54,934 nucleotides of DNA. Source: Candidatus Zixiibacteriota bacterium (GTDB lineage Bacteria; Zixibacteria; MSB-5A5; GN15; PGXB01). The notes beneath the pieces were generated by a model, which was not told the DNA's origin, made no database searches, and saw only the letters and a program-made list of their open reading frames with translations. The translations under genes and the position numbers were made by a program. The stretch spans positions 1 through 54,934 of the forward strand of contig JAFGTT010000022.1 in assembly GCA_016933955.1 (NCBI GenBank). The letters run 5' to 3'. This document shows positions 39,918-54,934 of this stretch, piece after piece; positions within the stretch are counted from its first letter, which is position 1, and every line of letters starts with the position of its first letter.

Positions 39918-40979
39918 ATGAACAGATCCATTAGCATTGCCGGATTGGCGCTGATTATCATGGCGCTGATACCTGCGGCACATACCGCGGCCGCCACCGA
40001 TTTTAGCGGTGATCTGACAATTGCCCAGGGGAAAGATACTCTGATTGGGAATATCAAGGTCAGCGATGAGTTCTATAAAATGGATTTCACTCCGTCCGGA
40101 CAACCGATTATCGTCATTGTCGACCGCACTAAAAGCGTCACCCATGTTTATAATACCCAGGAAAAACAATTCCGTGAAATGGGGAGCCAGGATCAAACCA
40201 GCCTGATGAATGATCCTTTTCAGAGTGCCGTCTATACCGCCTCGATTGCCAAAAAAGAAAGTCTCGGGATCGAAAAAATAGGACAGCAGGAGTGCGATAA
40301 GTTCAAATATTCCAGCAGTGGTCAGGATATAATGATCGTCTGGATAGCACGGGAATTCAATTTCCCCATTAAAATCCAGAATTTGGTGATGGCTGATTAT
40401 AGCGCGAAAATAACCAATATCAAAACCGGTAAAATAGACCGGGCCGAATTCAAGGGTCCCGAAGGCTATACGCCTTTCAGCGAGTCATCATCGGGGGGCT
40501 CACAGGATATCGATATTGTCAATGCCGCCGGGATGGGTAATATCGAGGTCATAAAAAAGCATCTGGATGCGGGAGTCGATATAAATTTCGATTCCGGCGA
40601 TGGCTACACACCATTATTAATGGCCGCCATGTACGGCCGGGATAAGGCCGTCAAATTTCTTGTCGAGGCCGGGGCCGATGTCAACCTGGTCACCGGGACA
40701 GGCCAGTCGGCGATACTGGCGGCATCTCAATACGGTAAAACCGAGATCGTCAAAATGCTGGTGGAGGCCGGGGCCGATGTCAACATGGTCTATGGATCGG
40801 GAAGCACCACCATCTTGAGAGAGGCGATCAAGTACGGCCACGTCGATCTGGTTAAATATCTAATCGAAGCCGGGGCCGACACCAGGTTCAAGAATGCTCA
40901 GGGTGAACCGCTGATGAGTGTCGCCAATAAAAGCGATGCTAAAATGATGGAAGTCCTGAAAGCCGCCGGAATAGACTAA
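39918..40979 (+). CDS. Exported protein with DUF4412-like domain and ankyrin repeats
   Basis: A 353-residue protein. A signal peptide (MNRSISIAGLALIIMALIPAAHTAAA) is followed by a domain of about 160 residues (FSGDLTIAQGKDTLIGNIKV to IKTGKIDRAEFKGPEGYTPF) that resembles DUF4412-type, LolA-like proteins. Four ankyrin repeats then follow (about 195-350), with the typical TPLLMAAMYGRDKAVKFLVEAGADVN rhythm and repeated EAGADVN. Periplasmic ankyrin proteins usually act by binding a partner. GGAGTTAAC precedes the ATG. Neighbours give no clue to the partner. Confidence 0.85.
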   Translation: MNRSISIAGLALIIMALIPAAHTAAATDFSGDLTIAQGKDTLIGNIKVSDEFYKMDFTPSGQPIIVIVDRTKSVTHVYNTQEKQFREMGSQDQTSLMNDPFQSAVYTASIAKKESLGIEKIGQQECDKFKYSSSGQDIMIVWIAREFNFPIKIQNLVMADYSAKITNIKTGKIDRAEFKGPEGYTPFSESSSGGSQDIDIVNAAGMGNIEVIKKHLDAGVDINFDSGDGYTPLLMAAMYGRDKAVKFLVEAGADVNLVTGTGQSAILAASQYGKTEIVKMLVEAGADVNMVYGSGSTTILREAIKYGHVDLVKYLIEAGADTRFKNAQGEPLMSVANKSDAKMMEVLKAAGID

Positions 40980-41161: not shown

Positions 41162-43522
41162 ATGAAAAAATATTATCCCTTCACGATAATCATCAATGTA
41201 ATTCTGATGATTCTTTCTGCGGCATCTTCCTTCGCGGGAATTATCACGGGGACAATCTATGATTTCGACAGCGGCCAGCCAATTTCCGCCGCCACTGTTC
41301 GAGTGGAAGGAACCGGCCGCTCCATGCTGGCCAATGACCAGGGGCAGTACCGCCTGCGACTCGATCCCGGAAAATATCAACTGAAGTTCAGCCATATCGC
41401 CCATTACTCGGAAACAGTCGAAATCGAAATTCCCGACAGCAATATCACTCTTGATGTCCGGTTGAGGCAGTCGGTTCAAATACTCAAAGGAATGAAAGTT
41501 TATCAGCGGGCCTATGACCCGGCCCAGAAGATAATCGTCCAGGCTATCGACCGCAAAAAGGACCTTCTCTCCCTGCTTCACGACTATTCTTTCGAGGCCT
41601 ACGCCCGGCTGGTAGTCAAGGATAAATCGAAAGCTGATTCCAACGCCATTATTCTGATCACCGAGACTCAACTGATTTCTTACTGGGAAGCACCGGATAA
41701 ATACAAGGAAATTATTCTGGCCCGCAAACAAACCTCAAACCTTCCCGCCGAAGGAAACATGGTCACGGTCGGCGGAATTCTGGATTTCAACGGCAACCGG
41801 ATGGAAATCGAGCGTTACTCGGTGGTCTCGCCAACCGCTTATGATGCCCTGGATCATTATAATTATTATCTGATCGATACCATTTATGTCGATAACAAAG
41901 CCATTTTCCGACTGGAGATCGAACCCAAAAACCAGAATGAGCCGCTTTTTGTCGGCACCATCGATATTGTCGATTCCTCCTTTGCCGTGGTGGGAGTCGA
42001 TGTTGGTTTCAGCGAGGGGGTCGAGCTACCCTATTTCTATGATATTCGATACACTCAGAAGTATGCTGAGTTTGATAATAATATCTGGATGCCCATCGAA
42101 ATCACCCTCGGAGGAACCATCAATATTGGTTTCCCCGGTATTCCGGTCATGACCATCGATTACCGCGCCGCCCTTCACCGTTATTTGTTTGATGCCGATG
42201 TGCCCGAAGTTGCTTTCGATGAATATGCCATTGAGGTCGATGAAAACGCCGACGATGTCGATTCGCTGGAATGGGCCTCCGGCCAGTTGATCCCTCTGAC
42301 CGGAGAGGAAGAATACGGTTACACGCGGATCGATTCGCTCGAAAATGAATCCAAACCGCTTCCGGTAACGATCATTAGATATACCATGATGGGGTTAATA
42401 GCCCTTCTCTCCAATTATGACTTATTCCATTACAACCGGGTCGAGGGCGCCTATCTCGGCCTTGGCCTTTATAATCTCGCTATTACTCCGGAACTTAGCC
42501 TTCATCTGAAAAGCGGTTATGCTTTCGATGGCGAATACTGGCAACATAATTATGGATTTAGATATTTGCTGAATAAACGTCAACGCTTATGGGTCGGAGC
42601 GGAATACCATGACGAAATCGTCCAGCGTCCGACTGTCGTATCGGGAGATTTTTATAATTCCACCTTTTTCGCATTCTGGAGCAAAATAGATCATGTTGAT
42701 TATTTCCGTGAAAAGGGTTACCGGCTGAGTCTCGGCGCGAAACTTCTCAATCATACCAGAATGACTCTGTCATACAACGACTTCAATCAATACAGCGTCT
42801 CCAATCACGCCACCTACAGTCTGTTCGATAAAGATAAGGAATTTCGTAAGAATCCTGAAATTACAGAGGGGAAATTACGCTCACTTGGGGCGGAGTTGGT
42901 CTGGGACAGCCGTCAGCTTGCAAAATTCAAAAAGGGGGAGAGACCGCTTAACAGTTTGCCCTATACTATTGTGAAAGCAGGCGGGGAACTGGCCGATCCC
43001 GATCTGATTGGAAATGATTTTCATTTTTCGCGTTACTATATATCGCTTGATCACAATTTCCGCCTGTTCAATTTCGGTTTTACCAATCTTACCGCCTATG
43101 CCGGCGGCTCTGATTATGATTTATCGCCCCAGAGATATTTTACGGTGGACCATGGCGGTGAAATAAGTTTTATCGAGTCTGCGTTCTGGACCACCGGCGA
43201 AACCAATTTCATAGGCAACCGGGTCGGTTCTGTCCATCTCAGTCACGATTTCGGCCGCTACCTGTTTCGCAAAAGCGGTTTGCCGCTGATAAAAGATTTG
43301 CCCCTGACCCTGAGTGTTCATGGCGGAGCTTTCTGGACCGATTTCAAGAACCATCTTCCGCAGACCGATGACCGGCTCTCTTTGGTAGCCGGGAAGCCGT
43401 ATCGGGAACTTGGCTTCGGAATCGGTTTTCCACAACTTCTGGGATTAAAGCTGATGTTGACCTGGCAGTTGTCGAATTATCCGACCGAGGATTTCTCTTT
43501 CGGTTTAAATATGGGATTTTAG
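41162..43522 (+). CDS. DUF5686-family outer-membrane beta-barrel protein
   Basis: A 786-residue outer-membrane protein. A signal peptide is followed by a carboxypeptidase-regulatory-like domain (IITGTIYDFDSGQPISAATV, to about residue 105). Then comes YDPAQKIIVQAIDRKKDLLS and YSFEAYARLVVKDKS, which is the DUF5686 hallmark (YSFxAYxK). The C-terminal half is a beta barrel rich in aromatic strands, ending FSFGLNMGF. DUF5686 proteins are common in the FCB group next to TonB systems, but their role is unsettled. It probably lies alone, 182 bases after the ankyrin gene. Confidence 0.85.
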   Translation: MKKYYPFTIIINVILMILSAASSFAGIITGTIYDFDSGQPISAATVRVEGTGRSMLANDQGQYRLRLDPGKYQLKFSHIAHYSETVEIEIPDSNITLDVRLRQSVQILKGMKVYQRAYDPAQKIIVQAIDRKKDLLSLLHDYSFEAYARLVVKDKSKADSNAIILITETQLISYWEAPDKYKEIILARKQTSNLPAEGNMVTVGGILDFNGNRMEIERYSVVSPTAYDALDHYNYYLIDTIYVDNKAIFRLEIEPKNQNEPLFVGTIDIVDSSFAVVGVDVGFSEGVELPYFYDIRYTQKYAEFDNNIWMPIEITLGGTINIGFPGIPVMTIDYRAALHRYLFDADVPEVAFDEYAIEVDENADDVDSLEWASGQLIPLTGEEEYGYTRIDSLENESKPLPVTIIRYTMMGLIALLSNYDLFHYNRVEGAYLGLGLYNLAITPELSLHLKSGYAFDGEYWQHNYGFRYLLNKRQRLWVGAEYHDEIVQRPTVVSGDFYNSTFFAFWSKIDHVDYFREKGYRLSLGAKLLNHTRMTLSYNDFNQYSVSNHATYSLFDKDKEFRKNPEITEGKLRSLGAELVWDSRQLAKFKKGERPLNSLPYTIVKAGGELADPDLIGNDFHFSRYYISLDHNFRLFNFGFTNLTAYAGGSDYDLSPQRYFTVDHGGEISFIESAFWTTGETNFIGNRVGSVHLSHDFGRYLFRKSGLPLIKDLPLTLSVHGGAFWTDFKNHLPQTDDRLSLVAGKPYRELGFGIGFPQLLGLKLMLTWQLSNYPTEDFSFGLNMGF

Positions 43523-45200: not shown

Positions 45201-46304
45201 ATGTCCTTCAGCTCTTTGCCCTCACGGCTAAACTGGACGTTTCTTTTGGTCTGTGCCATAATTGTTCTGGCGTTTTCCCCGACTGTCGCGCAGTTCCCCG
45301 ACCTGGTTGTCCAGGTAGGCGATACTACGGCCATGCCCGGCGAACAAAATACGGTCATCTCCGTATTCGCCAAAAATTATGCCGACACTGTCGCCGGATT
45401 TGAAGTCTGGCTGTTGCTGAATAAGAATTATATCTGCGAGTTTCAAACCGACACGGCCACTTTTGCCGACACCACTTATTACAGTTGTATTTCATGGAAC
45501 GGACCAGACTGTGAAGAGTGGCGGGATATCACCGATTCTGTGATTCTTGACCCGCTCTACCCCTACGACTCGATTAATATCGATGAATATCCGGCTGTCA
45601 TCGGTAATTTCGATACCACCGGCACCCTGATTTCCGGGTGGGAATATGTCCGGTCCAATTCCATGTCCGGGGGACCCTATGATATCAAAGTGGTCGGACA
45701 GGCCAACCAGTTAAAACCCCCGTACACCACTGGCATCGGCTATCCGCAGGTAGGCGAAAAACCGCTGTTTAAGATTCTGGCCGATGTTTATGATATTCCC
45801 GACGAAATGACCGACCGGACGGTGACCATTTACGTCCAGGCCACCACGGCCGATAATTTTAGTTTCTCCGATGAAAAGGGAAACGCTATCGGAATCCTGA
45901 CCGACACCATTTACGATACCACCTGGTATGAGTGCCTGGTCTGGGAGGGTGGAATCTGCACGCTCTGGGAAGAGGTCGAAGAGGGCCCGACCGACAGTTT
46001 TGTCATTTCCGATACCATTTTAAACGGTCATATCGACACTTCGAAAGTTTATATATTCAACGGTTCATTGACCATTGAGTTGCCGCCGCCTTATGACTGC
46101 GGCGATGTCAACTGCAGTAACAGTGTCAATATCCTGGATGCTACTTATATGATCAACTACCTCTATCGCGGCGGACCGGCACCCTGTGTTGCCGATCTGA
46201 TGGATGTCAATTGCGATACCAAACGTAATATCCTGGATGCCACTTATCTGATTAACTACCTCTATCGCGGCGGCCCGAGCCCGCACTGCCCGCCGGGTTG
46301 CTGA
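45201..46304 (+). CDS. Secreted protein: cohesin-like domain plus dockerin
   Basis: A 367-residue exported protein. After the signal peptide (LLVCAIIVLAFSPTVAQF) comes a beta-rich module starting DLVVQVGDTTAMPGEQNTV then AGFEVWLLL, the style of a cohesin-like sandwich. The end (about 300-367) holds two near-identical dockerin-like repeats: CGDVNCSNSVNILDATYMIN, YLYRGGPAP, then MDVNCDTKRNILDATYLIN, YLYRGGPSP, with Asp/Asn calcium loops. Unlike its neighbours it has no YPNPFNP tail, ending in SPHCPPGC. GGAGG stands before the ATG. It is the first gene after the strong promoter and may be the subunit held by others through its dockerin. Confidence 0.85.
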   Translation: MSFSSLPSRLNWTFLLVCAIIVLAFSPTVAQFPDLVVQVGDTTAMPGEQNTVISVFAKNYADTVAGFEVWLLLNKNYICEFQTDTATFADTTYYSCISWNGPDCEEWRDITDSVILDPLYPYDSINIDEYPAVIGNFDTTGTLISGWEYVRSNSMSGGPYDIKVVGQANQLKPPYTTGIGYPQVGEKPLFKILADVYDIPDEMTDRTVTIYVQATTADNFSFSDEKGNAIGILTDTIYDTTWYECLVWEGGICTLWEEVEEGPTDSFVISDTILNGHIDTSKVYIFNGSLTIELPPPYDCGDVNCSNSVNILDATYMINYLYRGGPAPCVADLMDVNCDTKRNILDATYLINYLYRGGPSPHCPPGC

Positions 46305-46617
46305 TCATGAGAGAGAAATAAATTGATTTTAATTGGGAGCTAATATTTGACTAATAACAGTTAACTTAACTTGCAACCAAAAACAAGAAAGGAGGTGAAA
46401 CTTAAGAGAGGTAATTTGATAGACACGCGCTCAGAAGAAAGAGATCTACATTACTACTTTTTCTTGCCGGAATTCAACGTCTCTCCTCGGCTTGGTGGCT
46501 CTCGCCGTTGAAGACAAGAGTGATTTCGGACTCGAGGGGGATGTTAACTGACTCAAAACGAGTCATTGCTTTGAGTTTAGTATGACAAATGCTAACGAAA
46601 CAAAACAGGAGTACAGC
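46305..46617 (+). other. Leader and spacer with alternative hairpins and an orphan SD
   Basis: No real gene. At 46389-46398 the sequence AAGGAGGTGA is a perfect anti-16S match, but no start codon follows at a usable distance. Near 46549-46576 two stems compete: TGACTC/GAGTCA (46549-46565) or ACTCAAA/TTTGAGT (46551-46576). They lie 30 bases before the true ribosome binding site of the next gene (CAGGAG, near 46605-46610). This may be a translational control element. Confidence 0.4.
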
Positions 46618-49392
46618 ATGAAACGCGTTTTGTTTACACTCGTTTTCGCATCATTACTTCTTTCTTTTGGGCTGGCTTACGGAATGTCCATTGTCCCGTC
46701 TGTTCCTGATTCCTTTAAGTGGGATGACGGCGGCACGATGAAAATCAAGGCCGGCCAGGAATTCTATATCGATATCAGCATCGCGAACTCCGGTTCGACC
46801 GGTGATCCTGATACCGATAAGGCCGGAATCTCGATGCCGTTCCAGTTTTATGGCACCGGGGCTGTCGTTACTGCCAACCATGTTGACAAGGGTTATGAAT
46901 GGCCTGCCAGCAGTATGCTTAATGGTGTCGTCAGTACCGGCGACGGAAGTCTTCTGCTGATGAACGGCTTCCAGGTCGGCGGTTTCTGGACTCTTGGCAA
47001 CTTCTTCTTTGCCTTTGGCTGGGATGGAACTCTTCCCGACACCCTCAACTACTCGGGCGCCGGATTCCCCGGCTTTGTCGTTAACCACACCGGCACCGAC
47101 ACCCCGACCGGTTTGGAACGTCTTAGGATCTTCCTCAATGTTCCGATGGCTGTTGATGAAGAAGGCGAAATCTGTATTGACAGTTGCGCCCACATTCCCG
47201 ATCAGGATCCTGATGGCAAGTTGAACTGGTTGTTCGACCCGCCGCTTCCTGAGTGGACCCAGACCTGCTGGCCGGTGAAATTCCAGCCGGACCCACTGCC
47301 GACTTTCACTAACTGCCCGCCAGTCGATGACGGCATTCAGTTTGATGTAGCTTACAGCTATGATTTCAACGCGGTTGATGGCACCCCCGTAACTCCGGGC
47401 GGCGTTACCTTCGCGATGATTTCCGGTCCCGGTGGAATTGATGCCACCTCCGGTCTCTATGAATGGGATCCGGCATGCGCTGATGTTGGTTCGAACGACG
47501 TTGTCGTTGGTGTGACCGATGCCGCCCATGCGGGCACCTATACCGATTGCGCTTTCACTATTACGGTGGAAAACACCGCTCCGGAAATTCAGCCGCCGGC
47601 GAAAGACACTATTTCAGTCGGCACCGAGGGTGTCGCGACAGTGGTATTCACTTCTAATGATGTCAATATCGGCGACACTGAAGAATGGTCAACCAGTGAC
47701 GGAGTCATTGTTTATGATGGCGTGACCGGTAAGGCCACCCTTACCTATACCGCTCCATCTGCCGCTGGTGATTATTCTGTGACTGTAACAGTCGAGGATT
47801 GCGCCGGTGACACCGACACCTATACCGTTGTCTTCCACGTTATCAGCGCCGTTCCTTATGACATCGTGATTGAAAAGGTTCACGGCCAGCATCAGGGTGT
47901 CCATGGCTACATCAGTGTTTTCAAGGGTGACGGTTCTGAAGACATGTTTGGTTGGGATTTTCTGATTGGTTACGACCAGTCGGCCCTGACCTTTATCGGC
48001 GCTATCAAGGGCGCTATCTTCACGGATCCGGCCTATGATTGGGAATACTTCACCTATCGTTACAACTACAACGGCAACTGCGGTTCGGCCTGCCCGAGCG
48101 GCTTGCTCCGTGTGGTTGCTATGGCCGAGTCCAACGATGGGCCGAATCATCCCGAAGAGTTGTTTATCCCGGATTATGATCCTTGCACCTTTGAGGATTC
48201 TCTGGGTATTCTGTTCACCCTCGACTTCCTGATCAGCTCGGATTATAACTTCCAGTCACAGTTCGCTCCCGTCAGCTTCTACTGGATGGATTGCGGTGAC
48301 AACACCATCGCCTACAACCCCAGTGAACTTGATGACGAGAACGCCGTTTACACGGCCGTGGCTGATGAAGTTTATGCCTATGGCGGCGATGATGAAACCA
48401 TTTATTGCGAGACCTATCGCCTGATGGTTATTCCGACCTCCATGAGCAAAGAATTCCCGACCTACTATGGTGCCGATGTTGTTGGTGAAAACTGCCTTGA
48501 TGACGCCGGTGTGTATCCTCCCGGTCACGCGTTAGCGGGTGAGCCGAAACCGGCTCCAGTACCGTTCATTCGGTTCTTCAACGGCGGCTTCGACATCATT
48601 CCGGTCAGCGAGCTCGATGATCGTGGTGACGTTAACCTGAACGGCATTCCAAACGAAATTGCCGACGCGGTTGTCTTCACCAACTACTTCATCGTTGGTT
48701 ACAATGCATTCACCATCAATATTGATGGTCAGGCTGCGGCCACCGAAGTCAATGGCGACGGTGTTGCCCTGACGGTTGCGGATTTGGTTTACCTGATCCG
48801 TGTCATCATCGGCGATGCCCTGCCTCTGCCCGCCGCCAAGATCAATCCTGGTCTGGTTGCTGAAGTTATCGACGCTAACGATGCTATCATCGTCAACGCC
48901 GAACTCGGTGCCGCCCAGTTTGTTCTGGAAGGCAATGTGGATGTGACTCTCGGTTCCGGTGCGGCTGGAATGGAGATGATCAGCGCGGTTCGCGATAACA
49001 ACACCTACGTGTTGGTTTACAGCATGGAGAAGGGTATGTCCGCCTCCGGTGAAATTCTGATCACCAACGGCAACCTGATTTCCATGGAAGCGGCCAACTA
49101 TGATGGTTTTGCTTACACAACCAAGATCATTCCTGCGGAATTTGCTTTGAACAACTACCCGAACCCGTTTAACCCGATGACCACCATCGCTCTCTCACTG
49201 CCGGTGGCCTCCAACTACAATGTCGGCATCTTCAACGTTGTCGGTCAGAAAGTTGGTGAGTTCAGCGGTCACAGCGAAGCTGGTACCGTCAATCTGGTTT
49301 GGGATGCTTCAAATCAGGCCTCAGGTATCTACTTCTACAAAGCGGAAGCTGGTAAGTATTCCGTGACCAAGAAGATGGTCCTGATTAAGTAA
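46618..49392 (+). CDS. Large secreted protein: Ig-like, cohesin-like, dockerin and sorting tail
   Basis: About 924 residues. The signal peptide (MKRVLFTLVFASLLLSFGLAYG) is followed by a beta-rich region, a putative Ig/cadherin-type repeat (TAPEIQPPAKDTISVGTEGV) and a cohesin-like module (DIVIEKVHGQHQGVHGYISV, with FLIGYDQSALTFIG). A calcium dockerin lies at about 670-735 (DDRGDVNLNGIPNEIADAVV and VNGDGVALTVADLVYLIRV). A C-terminal sorting domain (NNYPNPFNPMTTI to SVTKKMVLIK) is the type IX-like tag. It therefore carries both a cohesin-like and a dockerin module in one chain. The start is ATG 46618 (AGGAG upstream); 46582 is a longer in-frame ATG that I reject. Codons are more C-ending than its neighbours, a possible sign of high expression. 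Confidence 0.88.
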   Translation: MKRVLFTLVFASLLLSFGLAYGMSIVPSVPDSFKWDDGGTMKIKAGQEFYIDISIANSGSTGDPDTDKAGISMPFQFYGTGAVVTANHVDKGYEWPASSMLNGVVSTGDGSLLLMNGFQVGGFWTLGNFFFAFGWDGTLPDTLNYSGAGFPGFVVNHTGTDTPTGLERLRIFLNVPMAVDEEGEICIDSCAHIPDQDPDGKLNWLFDPPLPEWTQTCWPVKFQPDPLPTFTNCPPVDDGIQFDVAYSYDFNAVDGTPVTPGGVTFAMISGPGGIDATSGLYEWDPACADVGSNDVVVGVTDAAHAGTYTDCAFTITVENTAPEIQPPAKDTISVGTEGVATVVFTSNDVNIGDTEEWSTSDGVIVYDGVTGKATLTYTAPSAAGDYSVTVTVEDCAGDTDTYTVVFHVISAVPYDIVIEKVHGQHQGVHGYISVFKGDGSEDMFGWDFLIGYDQSALTFIGAIKGAIFTDPAYDWEYFTYRYNYNGNCGSACPSGLLRVVAMAESNDGPNHPEELFIPDYDPCTFEDSLGILFTLDFLISSDYNFQSQFAPVSFYWMDCGDNTIAYNPSELDDENAVYTAVADEVYAYGGDDETIYCETYRLMVIPTSMSKEFPTYYGADVVGENCLDDAGVYPPGHALAGEPKPAPVPFIRFFNGGFDIIPVSELDDRGDVNLNGIPNEIADAVVFTNYFIVGYNAFTINIDGQAAATEVNGDGVALTVADLVYLIRVIIGDALPLPAAKINPGLVAEVIDANDAIIVNAELGAAQFVLEGNVDVTLGSGAAGMEMISAVRDNNTYVLVYSMEKGMSASGEILITNGNLISMEAANYDGFAYTTKIIPAEFALNNYPNPFNPMTTIALSLPVASNYNVGIFNVVGQKVGEFSGHSEAGTVNLVWDASNQASGIYFYKAEAGKYSVTKKMVLIK

Positions 49393-49913
49393 GTGTAAAC
49401 TATTACACATTTCTCCCCGGGGAGGTTCAACCTCCCCGAGGGGGAAAAATAAGGGAGAGTGATTGACACCAGGATAGATAAAGAGAAAAGATTTTAGTTA
49501 TACAAAGTTGAGAATTTGAAGATGGCCCTGAAAACCTGCAAATATCTGATCCCTAAGAAGGATAGGGGCTTTTTTGTTTGTACAAGGACTGTCGATTTAT
49601 TTACTTGCAAGGTTTTGCATCATAAAAGCAATATCAGTACTAAATTTTCAATTCTACCCGCCACATCTTTAAATAATCATTTTTATCGCCATCAAAAGGA
49701 CGTGTAATTGATCGTAGCTAACTTTTGGATTTTTTTGACGCTTTTTTAACCTGTTGTTGAAACAGAAGATAGGAGAATATGCTCAGGATATAGAGGGCCC
49801 TGGAGAAGGTTTTTTCGGGAATTGTTTTGGATTTGAACGATAATTTAATTCGGCCCTGTCTTGGTCTGTGAGTTGCTTGATGGGAGGGCGGAGCAATCCG
49901 CATTTGAGGTAAT
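49393..49913 (+). other. 521-base gap with hairpins
   Basis: No gene. Just after the stop is a small perfect hairpin, GTGTAA/TTACAC (49393-49408), then a GC stem CGGGGAGG/CCTCCCCG (49418-49438) without a T-run. A real terminator follows at 49551-49575. TTGACA at 49463 has no matching -10 at the usual distance. The rest is A/T-rich and could hold a promoter for the next gene, but I see no good one. Confidence 0.5.
49551..49575 (+). terminator. Rho-independent terminator
   Basis: CCCTA (49551-49555) and TAGGG (49563-49567) with AGAAGGA as loop, followed by GC then TTTTTT and GTTTG. It probably ends the transcript of 46618, or is an attenuator before 49914. Confidence 0.65.
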
Positions 49914-51914
49914 ATGTTAGCTGGATATAGATTAACACATAAGATGGCGATTTTCCTGATAATCCTGGGACTGCTATGCCCGGCTTTATCAGCGGCCAAT
50001 GACGCCCCCAGTTTGAAGCCGGTTCCCCGGCAGTATCTTCTTGAGGGACAATTGCTTGAATTGAATATAGAATCAATCGACGGCGATGGCGACCCGATTC
50101 AACTCGGCGTTACCGCCCGGCCCAATGGCGCTTCGTTTGTCGATAATGGCGACGGCACCGGGCAGTTGATCTGGCAACCCGATTTTATCGGGCCGAATTC
50201 CTCGGTCGGATCGCCGTTTTCAGTGACTTTCTGGGCCGGTGACGGCCTTAATTATGATTTGATTCAGACTGAAATCGTGGTGATTAACAATAACCGCAAA
50301 CCGATCATTTCCGGACCCGACACCGTGACGGTAGCTTCAGGTTCTATACTCGACCTGGATTTGAGTGGTTCTGATATCGATCAGGATCCGCTTAGCTGGA
50401 GCACGGTCACGATGCCGGAGGGAATGGAATTAACACGCGGTGAGTCAGCCCATTTTACCTGGGCTACCACTTTTGCCGATTCCGGCATGCATTACCTGAC
50501 CGCCCTCCTGACTGATCAATTTGGCGCCACTGATACGGCCACGGTTATTCTCCACGTTTTGCAGACCGAAGTCTATGCCCTGAAAATCGATACTCTTTCG
50601 GTTTACCCCGGCGAAAATGTTGAGATCAATGTCGAACTGATGAATTTGGAAGAGGTTTCAGGCATCAATCTGGTGATCAATTTTGATCCCTCGGCCATGA
50701 TTTTCGGTTCTCTCACGCGCACGAACACCAGAACTGAAAACTTTGAATATTTTACCTACCAGTTGAACAGCCGTGGTATCCCCGGGGATATTAAAATTAT
50801 CGGGGTGGCTGATCTGGAAAATAGCGTTGCGACGCCGGGTCTTGAGGTGGGCGATGGGCCGGTGGTCCGGATGGGATTTTATATCACCGGCGATCTCACT
50901 TTTGCCGGCTACTCGATACCCGTCAAATTCGCTTTCCGGGATAATCTGGAACAGAATGACAATACCATGACTGATCCGGATGGTGCGCGCATCGACCAGG
51001 ATCAGATTGATTATTACGATGGATATGTTAAAATCAAAGCGTCTTCCCAGGACGGGATCGGCGATATCAACCTCAACGGTCTGACTTATGAAATAGGTGA
51101 CGTTATTTATTTCACCAATTATTTTGCGGATCCGTCCCGTTATCCATTGTCCCCGGAACAGATTCTTAATTCCGATGTCAATGGTGACGGCTATGCTCCC
51201 AATGTGGCCGACCTGGTTTACCTGGTCAATCGACTGATGAATATCCTTCCGGGGAGCTCCAAAATCTCTCCCGGGGAAGCCCTGGTGGATATTGCCTTCG
51301 GGCCGACTTCGAACGGATTAGGTTTCAGTTACCGATCTGTCAGCGAACTCGGCGCCGTGGCCCTGGTATTGAAGGCCAATCAGCCGATCGATCAGCCGCT
51401 CGAAGTCAAATCCGCGATGCTTGATTTGGGGATGCAAATAAAAATGTCGATCGACGGCGATCTGGTAAGGATTATTATTTACAGCGATGAGGCTGTCCGG
51501 ATGCCGTCGGGACTGAATACTTTTATGGAAATCGAAAATGATTTGAGTTTAACCATAGATGAAATCCAGCTTTCATCGGCCGACGGGTTTATCTTGACCC
51601 CGGTTATGAAAGACGATCCGGGAGAACTGCTTCCGGCCGGCTTTGAATTGTATCAGAATTATCCCAATCCCTTCAACCCGGCTACGGAAATAAGTTTCAG
51701 TACTCCCCAATCGGCTCCGGTCAGCCTGAAGATCTACAATATTCTCGGGCAGGAAATCCGGAGTCTGGTCGATGAGGTGCTTCCGGCGGGGAACCACCTG
51801 GTGACCTGGAACGGCCGTGATGACGCCGGCCGGATGGTTTCCAGCGGGATTTATTTCTACAGCTTGAGTACCGAGTCATATTCAGCGCGAAAAAAAATGA
51901 TCCTTCTTAAGTGA
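49914..51914 (+). CDS. Secreted protein: Ig-like repeats, cohesin-like, dockerin and sorting tail
   Basis: A 666-residue exported protein. The N-terminus (KMAIFLIILGLLCPALSAAND) is a signal peptide, with ATG 49914 after GAGG or ATG 49944 as start. Two Ig/He_PIG-like repeats follow (APSLKPVPRQYLLEGQLLEL, then IDGDGDPIQLGVTARPNGAS). A cohesin-like module begins YALKIDTLSVYPGENVEINV. The dockerin (about 380-450) reads GDINLNGLTYEIGDVIYFTN and DVNGDGYAPNVADLVYLVN. The tail (NYPNPFNPATEISF to ARKKMILLK) is the sorting domain. It has the same architecture as its left neighbour with different repeats. It is translated directly into the next gene (12 bases apart). Confidence 0.88.
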   Translation: MLAGYRLTHKMAIFLIILGLLCPALSAANDAPSLKPVPRQYLLEGQLLELNIESIDGDGDPIQLGVTARPNGASFVDNGDGTGQLIWQPDFIGPNSSVGSPFSVTFWAGDGLNYDLIQTEIVVINNNRKPIISGPDTVTVASGSILDLDLSGSDIDQDPLSWSTVTMPEGMELTRGESAHFTWATTFADSGMHYLTALLTDQFGATDTATVILHVLQTEVYALKIDTLSVYPGENVEINVELMNLEEVSGINLVINFDPSAMIFGSLTRTNTRTENFEYFTYQLNSRGIPGDIKIIGVADLENSVATPGLEVGDGPVVRMGFYITGDLTFAGYSIPVKFAFRDNLEQNDNTMTDPDGARIDQDQIDYYDGYVKIKASSQDGIGDINLNGLTYEIGDVIYFTNYFADPSRYPLSPEQILNSDVNGDGYAPNVADLVYLVNRLMNILPGSSKISPGEALVDIAFGPTSNGLGFSYRSVSELGAVALVLKANQPIDQPLEVKSAMLDLGMQIKMSIDGDLVRIIIYSDEAVRMPSGLNTFMEIENDLSLTIDEIQLSSADGFILTPVMKDDPGELLPAGFELYQNYPNPFNPATEISFSTPQSAPVSLKIYNILGQEIRSLVDEVLPAGNHLVTWNGRDDAGRMVSSGIYFYSLSTESYSARKKMILLK

Positions 51915-51925
51915 GGTGCAGATAT

Positions 51926-54616
51926 ATGAATGCCAAATTGAAAACCGAAAAAAATAATCCACTGAGGTTCATGCTAAGATGGAGCCGAATCCCTCTGTTG
52001 GTTCTACTCCTGATGCTTTTGATAGGAAACACCGGCCACGCCCAATTGGTTGATAGTGTCAACTATAAACTCGCTATGGGGAATTTCAAAGGCCTGGCCG
52101 GGGATACTGTTCGCTGCCCTATCAAACTTAAGAATCTGTTGTCTATTGGGGCCTTCATGATTCGTCTTGAATTCGACACCACCCTGCTCAAACCTGTTTA
52201 TGTCGGAACCGATGCCGCGACAGTCGTATTTGACTCACTGGAACTGGTCGGCCGGGGATTAGGTACAATTCACATCGACTCTACCAGCGGTAGTCCGCCC
52301 TGGGAAACAGATTATACGGTTTTCGCCCGATATGATTCGCTTAAACCATATCCCAACCAGAAAGCGATGTTTATTTCGTTTTTCCCGCCGTATCCACCTG
52401 ATACGACCGAATACATCCGTAATCTCTGGGGTTCTCCTCGACTCACGCCCGAAACCAGCGACCCCTCGACTATTTTAAATCTGCTGTTCCAGGTGAAATC
52501 AACGGCCACGCTGGGGCAGGTGGGGTACCTTTATATAAAGAACAGCCAAGATGAACCGCGTGAGGTACAGCTCTCGGATACCACCGGACTTATTTATATT
52601 CAGCCGGGGTACGGTTATCCCCAGTTCGCTTATTGCACTTTTACGGTCGGAGAACCGGACAACAGCTCCCCCGTTATTTCGGTCAGTCCGGATTCATACA
52701 ATGTCACCGCCGGCCAGCCGGTGTCCTTTAATGTCAACGTAACTGATGCTGATGGCGATGATGTAACCCTGACGGGAAGCGGGATACCCACGGGAGCCTC
52801 GTTTAGTCCGGCCACCAATGCCGCTACGCCGCTGACTCAGGCTTTCAGCTGGACCCCTACTTCCACTGATAACGGGACATATTCCATAACTTTTACGGCT
52901 GACGATGGTATTTCATCTCCGGGAACCAAAACCGTGACCATCATTGTCGGCGGAACTACCGTCAATAATCCGGTCATAACAGTTCAGACCTCTTTTGCCC
53001 TAACCCAGGGTGAGTTACTAACCTTTACCGCTTCGGCCACGGATCCTAACGGCGATAATCTCTGTCTCAAAGCACTGTCTCTTCCCGCCGGGGCAAAATT
53101 CGGAACAGCTGATTCCGTCTGCGGTACCGGCAGTGTTTCCGGTCAGTTTATCTGGACCCCGAGTTTCTCTCAGAAAGGCGATTTTGCAGTTACTTTCATG
53201 GCTGTCGATGCCACCAGTTTAACCACGACCAAAACGGTAAATATTTATGTGGAAGAAATCGATCGAGATCGTTTATATTCTTCCTCATCTTATGGACAGA
53301 GTCCGGTTGGCGGGATTGCCGGGGCGACACCAGTGGTCTTTCCGATCGATCTGGCCACCACCAAGACCGTGTACGGTGTTAACTTCCGCATGAAATATCC
53401 CGGCTCGGTGGCCCAACTCGATTCCATTAATGTTACCGATCGAATTCCTGAATACGTCGTGTGGGAGACAATCGGCCAAGTTCCGGATACCGTTAATGTT
53501 ATCACCTATGGTCTGGCCAGTGAACCGGTGGTGGAGGGCTCGTCCACGGCCATCCTCAATGCCTTTTTCAGTATGGATTCCCTGGCCGAACCGGGCAATT
53601 ACTGGATACATCTGTTCGATGCCTGGGAAGCTGTCAGTCCCAGTTATCAGGATTCATCCCTTCCGCTGGTGGTCGATTCCGGTATTATCCAAGTGGACCG
53701 CATGGGCGATGTTACCCTGGAGGGACGTATCGACGTGGCCGATGCGACCTCGGTCGTTTCGCATATTCTTGGTCATCATACGCTTCCGTACCGGAATTTC
53801 GCCACGGCCAATGTGATAACCGACAGTATTGTCAACGTGGTGGATCTGGTGGCGATCACCTACCTGGTTCTGGGTCTTGATTTCACGCCACCGTCGCCAG
53901 CTCCCGCCGGCAGTCAAATGGCCACGATTGATATCGAATATGATGATTTAATGTCGGGACAATTAACCAAACTGAATGTTCGCGGCGAATTCCCCGATGC
54001 TGTCGCCGGGATAGAGCTTCAGATAGACTATGATCCCGCCGCCATCGAACTGGATAGGCCTGAAATGGCTGCCGAAGTTGATAATTTTATTCTTGATTAT
54101 AACGATGATGGCAATGGTCGATTGAAGGTGCTTCTTTTCACTTTCCAGCCATGGAAAACCAGTTCGACCATCCCGGCCGGGTTGTCGGATATTATCCGGA
54201 TTCCGGCTTTAACCAAGAAAGAAATCAAGTCCGATGATATATCCAAAGTGAGAATCACGCGGGCCTATCTTTCCAATCCCAGCGCCCGCGATATCCCGAT
54301 CGAAGGAATCAATCCGCTTTTACCGACCACCTTCACACTCAACCAGAATTATCCCAATCCCTTCAACCCGACCACGAAGATTGATTTTGAAATCGGTCAG
54401 AGCGATTACTCGCAACAGCATGTCCGGCTTGAAGTCTATAATATCCTCGGTCGGAAGGTCAGAACGCTGGTCGACGATGATATGACCACCGGATCGTATA
54501 GCGTTATTTGGGATGCCACCGATGGCGACGGTACCAGAGTCGCGACCGGAATTTACCTTTATCGATTGGAAGTCGGCGATAAATCCCAGTCCAAAAAGAT
54601 GCTTTTACTTAAGTAA
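51926..54616 (+). CDS. Large secreted protein: Ig-like repeats, cohesin-like, dockerin and sorting tail
   Basis: About 896 residues. A signal peptide (SRIPLLVLLLMLLIGNTGHAQ) is followed by a cohesin-like module (NYKLAMGNFKGLAGDTVRCP, then IRLEFDTTLLKPVYVG) and two Ig/He_PIG repeats (SPDSYNVTAGQPVSFNVNVT and SFALTQGELLTFTASATDPN). A second cohesin-like module comes next (GIAGATPVVFPIDLATTK), then a dockerin-like stretch (MGDVTLEGRIDVADATSVVS) and the sorting tail (NQNYPNPFNPTTKIDF to SKKMLLLK). ATG 51926 follows GAGGTG at 7 bases; the frame also opens at GTG 51911 over the previous stop. It is the largest and most repeat-rich protein here after 46618. Confidence 0.87.
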   Translation: MNAKLKTEKNNPLRFMLRWSRIPLLVLLLMLLIGNTGHAQLVDSVNYKLAMGNFKGLAGDTVRCPIKLKNLLSIGAFMIRLEFDTTLLKPVYVGTDAATVVFDSLELVGRGLGTIHIDSTSGSPPWETDYTVFARYDSLKPYPNQKAMFISFFPPYPPDTTEYIRNLWGSPRLTPETSDPSTILNLLFQVKSTATLGQVGYLYIKNSQDEPREVQLSDTTGLIYIQPGYGYPQFAYCTFTVGEPDNSSPVISVSPDSYNVTAGQPVSFNVNVTDADGDDVTLTGSGIPTGASFSPATNAATPLTQAFSWTPTSTDNGTYSITFTADDGISSPGTKTVTIIVGGTTVNNPVITVQTSFALTQGELLTFTASATDPNGDNLCLKALSLPAGAKFGTADSVCGTGSVSGQFIWTPSFSQKGDFAVTFMAVDATSLTTTKTVNIYVEEIDRDRLYSSSSYGQSPVGGIAGATPVVFPIDLATTKTVYGVNFRMKYPGSVAQLDSINVTDRIPEYVVWETIGQVPDTVNVITYGLASEPVVEGSSTAILNAFFSMDSLAEPGNYWIHLFDAWEAVSPSYQDSSLPLVVDSGIIQVDRMGDVTLEGRIDVADATSVVSHILGHHTLPYRNFATANVITDSIVNVVDLVAITYLVLGLDFTPPSPAPAGSQMATIDIEYDDLMSGQLTKLNVRGEFPDAVAGIELQIDYDPAAIELDRPEMAAEVDNFILDYNDDGNGRLKVLLFTFQPWKTSSTIPAGLSDIIRIPALTKKEIKSDDISKVRITRAYLSNPSARDIPIEGINPLLPTTFTLNQNYPNPFNPTTKIDFEIGQSDYSQQHVRLEVYNILGRKVRTLVDDDMTTGSYSVIWDATDGDGTRVATGIYLYRLEVGDKSQSKKMLLLK

Positions 54617-54637
54617 GGAAACAGGAGGGCTGGGAAA

Positions 54638-54934
54638 ATGAAAAAGTTTGTTAGACTTGACAGAATGAAACTGCGATCCGTTTTCGGTTTGCTGGCGATT
54701 TTAATATTGGCTTGCCCCAATGTTATGGCGCAGGCCAATGAATTGCCGGTTCTTGATCCGATCGGATCACAGACGATAGATGAAAATCTTAATCTGAGTT
54801 TCTCGATTTCAGCATCGGATGTCGAAAGCACACCGGTGCTAACCACTTCGACACTACCGACCGGGGCCTCATTTACGGATAACACCGATGGGACGGGGAC
54901 GTTCAGCTGGACCCCGGATTACACCCAGTCGGGA
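54638..54934 (+). CDS. Secreted protein with Ig-like repeat (cut by window end)
   Basis: The first 99 codons of another member of the family; no stop is reached. The signal peptide (SVFGLLAILILACPNVMAQ) leads into an Ig/He_PIG-like repeat (LPVLDPIGSQTIDENLNLSF, then LPTGASFTDNTDGTGTFSWT), the same repeat style as in 51926. ACAGGAGGG precedes the ATG. The ending and any dockerin or sorting tail lie outside the window. Confidence 0.85.
   Translation, partial: MKKFVRLDRMKLRSVFGLLAILILACPNVMAQANELPVLDPIGSQTIDENLNLSFSISASDVESTPVLTTSTLPTGASFTDNTDGTGTFSWTPDYTQSG

Follow-up and report, generated by a model that had tools for sequence, protein, structure and literature searches.

We propose that in Zixibacteriota, cohesins displayed by T9SS-tailed proteins bind dockerin-ended proteins and keep them on the cell surface. 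In the locus described here, three tailed proteins (P2, P3, and P4) would hold a tandem-Ig fibre (P5) and a small dockerin protein (P1), a reading to which, judging from sequence, we give a probability of roughly 60%.

A conserved locus of putative surface proteins

The window (the whole 54,934-nucleotide stretch analysed) is the entire contig C22 of a 3.38 Mb host genome. As a preliminary description of this DNA had stated, the right end of the contig encodes four complete, exported-looking proteins and a cut fifth: on the plus strand, we found four complete ORFs (P1–P4), followed by a truncated one with its ATG at 54638 (Table 1). The N-termini of P1–P4 are signal-peptide-like by inspection, and P5 is incomplete because C22 ends there. 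A DUF5686 protein with a carboxypeptidase-regulatory-like domain (41162-43522) lies immediately upstream of the locus, and the protein at 39918-40979 looks exported and has ankyrin repeats at its C-terminus.

Table 1. Proteins and modules of the locus, with the match supporting each assignment
Feature	Position	Strand	Match
P1: signal peptide, beta-rich domain, terminal canonical dockerin, no T9SS tail	45201..46304	+	
P1 beta-rich N-terminal domain, weak cohesin likeness	about 45270-46079	+	
P1 dockerin, two calcium-loop repeats	46101..46262	+	Dockerin_1 (PF00404) 1.1e-9
P2: signal peptide, beta domains, cohesin, DocB, X domain, T9SS type A tail	46582..49392	+	
P2 cohesin, aa 428-577	47863..48312	+	iterated local profile 8e-26; missed by Pfam
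P2 DocB, variant dockerin, 13-residue loops	48625..48825	+	homologous P3 module tested against PDB
P2 T9SS sorting tail	49156..49380	+	PF18962 1.2e-10; TIGR04183 over cut-off
P3: signal peptide, two Ig-like (Big_9) domains, cohesin, DocB, X domain, T9SS tail	49914..51914	+	
P3 cohesin	50571..51047	+	Pfam 1e-7; PDB cohesins, best 1.5e-8
P3 DocB, variant dockerin	51051..51269	+	PDB dockerin 5m2o 5.7e-4
P3 X domain, beta-rich	51270..51653	+	no known relative found
P3 T9SS sorting tail	51660..51902	+	PF18962 1.3e-6; TIGR04183 over cut-off
P4: signal peptide, cohesin, He_PIG domains, cohesin, degenerate dockerin, cohesin, T9SS tail	51911..54616	+	
P4 cohesin 1	52076..52522	+	iterated local and genome-wide cohesin profiles
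P4 cohesin 2	53306..53620	+	iterated local and genome-wide cohesin profiles
P4 degenerate dockerin	53705..53881	+	orthologues match local dockerin profile
P4 cohesin 3	53927..54277	+	iterated local and genome-wide cohesin profiles
P4 T9SS sorting tail	54350..54601	+	PF18962 9.5e-6; TIGR04183 over cut-off
P5, cut by contig end: signal peptide, first Ig-like repeat	54638..54934	+	

We sampled 16 orthologous loci from relatives in several Zixibacteriota families. The order P1–P2–P3–P4 was kept in 13 of them, and in the remaining three, P1 and P2 were absent nearby or off the contig. An Ig-like repeat ORF comes after P4 in most of the 16. Downstream of the locus, relatives encode dockerin-ended proteins (a subtilase among them in two tested loci) as well as short T9SS-tailed proteins. 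The latter were considered as anchors, but they are not Pfam cohesins and hence were not counted. In one relative (G010, L192:9605-13110), four mutually similar T9SS-tailed proteins of 278-280 aa stand in tandem downstream of the locus, and the tail is the only Pfam domain in the two tested.

In relatives, P5 consists of tandem Ig repeats and reaches thousands of residues. Some of these matches rest on Ig repeats common to P3 and P4. Among the relatives whose contigs allowed reading through, P5 was a single ORF with a dockerin at its end in G064 (3,242 aa) and G010 (5,949 aa). In G044, G086, and G039, a long Ig-repeat ORF was directly followed by another, which had the dockerin at its end; gene splitting and assembly errors in the repeats would explain this arrangement indistinguishably. 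In the host assembly, we found no sequence joined to C22 that would complete P5, and no cohesin was seen in P5. From the relatives, we infer a dockerin for host P5 or for the next gene. That this dockerin comes from relatives, and from a separate ORF in some, counts against our proposal.

Cohesins, dockerins, and sorting tails within single chains

In P2, P3, and P4 alike, cohesin, dockerin-type module, and T9SS tail can be firmly assigned. The Pfam search that the preliminary description had proposed as a check matched Dockerin_1 in P1, cohesin (PF00963) over the cut-off in P3 (1e-7) and P4 (8.8e-11), He_PIG in P4, and tails in P2–P4. It gave no cohesin in P1 or in P2, where the sorting tail alone reached the cut-off, and no Dockerin_1 match for the internal modules of P2, P3, and P4, even at E up to 1. 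YPNPFNP-type tails had been noted in three proteins but not in the first, and TIGR04183 confirmed exactly this pattern; the PF18962 score of P4 (26.3 bits) was slightly below the 27-bit cut-off.

A local cohesin profile, seeded with the six Pfam cohesin matches of the whole genome and then iterated, added the P2 cohesin and resolved three cohesins in P4. The P3 cohesin profile matched 33 PDB sequences, 30 of which are named cohesin, scaffoldin, or anchoring protein; the other three comprised two labelled endoglucanase and one unrelated oxygenase (E 0.8). At the level of sequence profiles, the cohesin identity originally proposed therefore stands for P3 and P4 with Pfam and for P2 with the local profile, but not for P1.

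In both P2 and P3, a module that we call DocB sits between the cohesin and the X domain. We regard DocB as a probable relative of dockerin with 13-residue loops, and these loops may be the reason why Pfam overlooks it. Among 16 orthologues, the D and N ligand positions of DocB never vary, and a PDB profile search placed dockerins on top (5m2o at 5.7e-4, further ones weaker), while also matching a serine protease and a limonene synthase at E 0.5-0.7. In the P4 dockerin, the second loop begins with Asn. The dockerin-like calcium repeats described earlier are thus canonical in P1 and variant in P2 and P3, with a degenerate second loop in P4. The X domain had no PDB relative by sequence, and its profile comparison was not cohesin-like. 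The cohesin–DocB–X unit stays together in most of the phylum, with the P3 query matching 123 of 132 genomes. Placed beside a cohesin, DocB is a candidate partner for another chain, a candidate partner for its neighbour in the same chain, or a candidate linker.

P1 carries the dockerin that had been described for the tail-less first protein, and this dockerin is of the same class as the terminal dockerins found genome-wide. Its N-terminal domain appears only weakly cohesin-like: HHalign against the P3 cohesin gave 88% over 70 columns, and neither Pfam nor a PDB profile search returned a cohesin match. P1 perhaps holds both kinds of module. The claim that at least four chains combine the two is accordingly upheld for P2, P3, and P4 but not confirmed for P1 or P5. 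In AlphaFold models of P1 (alignment of 2 sequences) and P3 (alignment of 5 sequences), the cohesin–dockerin region was mostly at pLDDT <50, and Foldseek with the low-confidence P3 model returned generic multi-Ig matches alone, with TM up to about 0.3. As previously noted, the four complete proteins contain no carbohydrate-active domain.

Dockerins, tails, and cohesins across the host genome

Genome-wide, the host has 76 Dockerin_1 matches, 46 T9SS-tailed proteins, and six Pfam cohesin matches. In 67 proteins without a T9SS tail, the dockerin match lies within 50 residues of the C-terminus, followed in 31 of the 67 by exactly 10 residues. A single host protein has both a dockerin and a T9SS tail, and its dockerin is internal. 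A crude signal-peptide script passed 63 of the 67 dockerin-ended and 42 of the 46 tailed proteins, compared to 51 of 460 internal control stretches. SprA is present (2.4e-162), and the secretin model of the type II system gave matches below the cut-off only.

Both dockerin repeats were parsed in 59 terminal copies, and both follow one consensus, D-x-N-x-S/N/D-G-x-V/I-N-I-L-D-V/A-T-Y-L-I-N-Y-L-Y-K/R. Position 11 is L in 53 and 54 of the 59 copies and position 19 is Y in 59 and 56; the parser demanded the pattern at positions 1, 3, 9, and 12, so that evidence comes from the remaining positions alone. By this sequence comparison, the terminal dockerins are one class, near-uniform at surface positions as well as calcium-loop residues. 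Such symmetric repeats resemble those of dual-mode cellulosomal dockerins. There were also individual departures from the usual arrangement. Four proteins (L122, L123, L115, and L109; C29_26901p, C6_12077p, C14_28434m, and C36_5094m) have a dockerin directly after the signal peptide, and the first of these, C29_26901p, resembles a papain-type peptidase by eye. Elsewhere, five dockerin-ended genes stand in a row (L069, C7:4019-20880), and one of them, C7_16409p, has two cohesin–DocB units ahead of its terminal dockerin.

Host cohesins are divergent, with 11-25% identity to the P3 cohesin. A genome-wide profile built from 21 seed domains, all from tagged proteins, found 22 domains in 18 proteins (11 T9SS-tailed, six dockerin-ended, and one neither), adding just one protein beyond the seeds. 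The unseeded Pfam search found five proteins, all of them tagged. The only untagged cohesin in the host genome belongs to a 201-aa protein on contig C12 (L244:1464-2069), which has a signal peptide and a cohesin but neither T9SS tail nor dockerin. Given that six dockerin-ended proteins also bear cohesins, the roles of the two groups are not fully separate. Moreover, dockerins far outnumber cohesins in this genome, an excess that counts against the attachment model.

Minimal anchors and peptidase cargo

We sampled 20 loci from 20 relatives, picked because a short ORF there has a Pfam cohesin. Of these loci, 18 encode signal–cohesin–tail proteins 272-332 aa long, some two or three in tandem; because these loci were selected for short ORFs, the share says nothing on cohesins as a whole. 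At the other two, one ORF was contig-truncated and tail-less and one had no local-profile match. The host encodes two such minimal anchors (C30_13933p and C38_133897p) and a two-cohesin version (C4_28996p). With one cohesin, a tail, and no dockerin, minimal anchors have no evident part besides receptor and anchor.

This widespread short family suits an anchor rather than the polymer that the preliminary description envisaged, in which dockerins and cohesins bind head to tail between or within chains to give a matrix, leaving P1 a free subunit. P2–P4 do have cohesins next to a dockerin-type module, and the retention of the cohesin–DocB–X unit across the phylum fits such assembly. However, the loop length and helix sequence of DocB are unlike those of the terminal class, meaning that its cohesin partners may be different ones, and the minimal anchors lack a dockerin altogether. 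The low-confidence AlphaFold models support neither this assembly nor attachment. Self-polymerisation is not indicated, and we consider it unlikely.

The proteins that end in a dockerin are rich in peptidases. For 66 dockerin-ended proteins, the 25 commonest Pfam families, where one protein may count in several, include the peptidase families S8 (5), C25 (4), M14 (3), M6 (2), C1 (2), M28 (2), M20 (2), and C10 (1), as well as FG-GAP repeats. The 46 tailed proteins include S8 (6), C25 (2), M6 (2), C1 (1), and FG-GAP. Since S8, C25, M6, and C1 occur in both sets, the two C-terminal modules are found on the same catalytic families. Among the 25 commonest families of the dockerin-ended set, none was a carbohydrate-active enzyme family, so that peptidases are found here in place of the dockerin-bearing plant-polysaccharide enzymes that define a cellulosome. 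The earlier expectation of a structural or adhesive role rather than digestion is thus too narrow, since it leaves out this peptidase-rich pool.

Distribution across the phylum

Across 132 genomes, cohesin was detected in 118, dockerin in 127 (often at least about 44 dockerins per genome), and SprA in 129. The five dockerin-less genomes, from families f6 and f17, all lack cohesin and all have SprA. If genomes are treated as independent, the chance of this joint absence is 6e-6, with just two families involved. Conversely, dockerins without any Pfam cohesin occur in nine genomes, which counts against the attachment model. Three of the nine, from one genus (G025, G026, and G027), have 20-41 dockerins; their cohesins may have been lost, may be divergent, or may have been replaced by a different partner.

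The joint absence also bears on whether these modules are structural linkers, that is, calcium-stabilised spacers and sandwich domains with no specific binding between chains. The divergence of the cohesins, the degenerate P4 dockerin, and a DocB that always adjoins a cohesin in the same chain would all suit linkers. Yet linkers would not be expected to be absent together in two families, nor would terminal dockerins be near-uniform in both repeats, surface positions included, and held at a fixed distance from the C-terminus. Consequently, we regard this explanation as improbable.

A proposed surface-attachment system

We therefore return to attachment as the preferred reading, in which the locus would be one node of a genome-wide, cellulosome-like surface-attachment system of Zixibacteriota that uses T9SS as its anchor. 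T9SS-tailed proteins, from minimal anchors up to P2–P4, would be secreted and fixed outside by their tails, presenting their cohesins. Dockerin-ended, tail-less proteins (P1, many peptidases, and P5 or its neighbour) would then dock on these cohesins with calcium. At this locus, the fibre held on the surface by the P2–P4 cohesins would be tandem-Ig P5, and P1 would be a smaller subunit with a dockerin. The model builds on the domain content, the synteny, the nearly exclusive C-terminal modules, the presence of nearly all cohesins in tagged proteins, and SprA. It predicts binding, the pairing of cohesin with dockerin, a part for calcium, a surface location, and a route for dockerin proteins across the outer membrane.

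For that route, dockerin proteins with Sec signals but no T9SS tail might bind cohesin–tail carriers in the periplasm and cross the outer membrane with them through T9SS, making the dockerin a second-hand secretion signal, but we hold such hitch-hiking to be rather improbable. Least probable in our judgement is a terminal dockerin acting as the secretion or sorting signal of an unknown machine or a type II system, with the cohesins of tailed proteins serving otherwise: 67 tail-less proteins of Sec-signal type do end in one module at a constant end distance, and the same peptidase families bear tail or dockerin, but the dockerin has a known partner in the cohesin, the genome displays cohesins on tailed proteins, and no complete type II secretin was found over the cut-off.

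If attachment is correct, an uncultivated phylum arranges much of its secretome by a T9SS-anchored receptor and a dockerin plug, the latter fitted to peptidases and large fibres. The logic of the cellulosome would then reach protein digestion and adhesion in Gram-negative bacteria, raising the question of how dockerin proteins pass over the outer membrane and offering further cohesin–dockerin pairs for engineering.

Comparison with known systems

In clostridial primary and adaptor scaffoldins such as CipA, one chain combines cohesin and dockerin, and the two modules couple exported enzymes like a plug and its socket. Structures of these scaffoldins are among the matches of the P3 cohesin profile. 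However, the clostridial cellulosome has Gram-positive SLH/sortase anchoring and cellulase cargo, whereas the Zixibacteriota proteins have T9SS tails and peptidases. The premise of the preliminary description that the two partners sit on separate proteins in known cellulosomes does not hold, as scaffoldins contain both. So do chains of ANME archaea (PMC9012536). The ANME system is non-cellulosomal and includes many dockerins, with chains of one dockerin and up to five cohesins; unlike Zixibacteriota, these are archaea with an S-layer context and substrate-binding proteins as dockerin cargo (PMC9012536).

A close parallel is Candidatus Stygibacter (Cloacimonadota), for which a cohesin scaffoldin with a C-terminal surface-attachment domain has been proposed, along with S8 and C25 peptidases and glycoside hydrolases that end in dockerins (PMC8542988). 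In both cases, dockerin-ended S8 and C25 peptidases are thus proposed to sit on cell-attached cohesins. Still, in Stygibacter a single large scaffoldin carries tandem cohesins and CBMs, and glycoside hydrolases belong to the system (PMC8542988), while Zixibacteriota have numerous small anchors of one cohesin each, proteins that mix cohesin and DocB, an Ig-fibre locus, and no carbohydrate-active family among those listed.

With T9SS type A cargo such as gingipains, P2–P4 share the type A sorting domain, and the host has SprA. Unlike gingipain-type cargo, C25 and other peptidase families here also occur with a dockerin replacing the tail. Cohesin and dockerin in one chain have been described before (PMC9012536), and the anchoring of cohesins by a C-terminal domain has been proposed before (PMC8542988). 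In the literature that we searched, no paper combined Zixibacteria, dockerin, and cohesin. What appears new, as far as that search shows, is the extent of the arrangement in Zixibacteriota, together with the minimal anchors, the conserved Ig-fibre locus, and the DocB variant.
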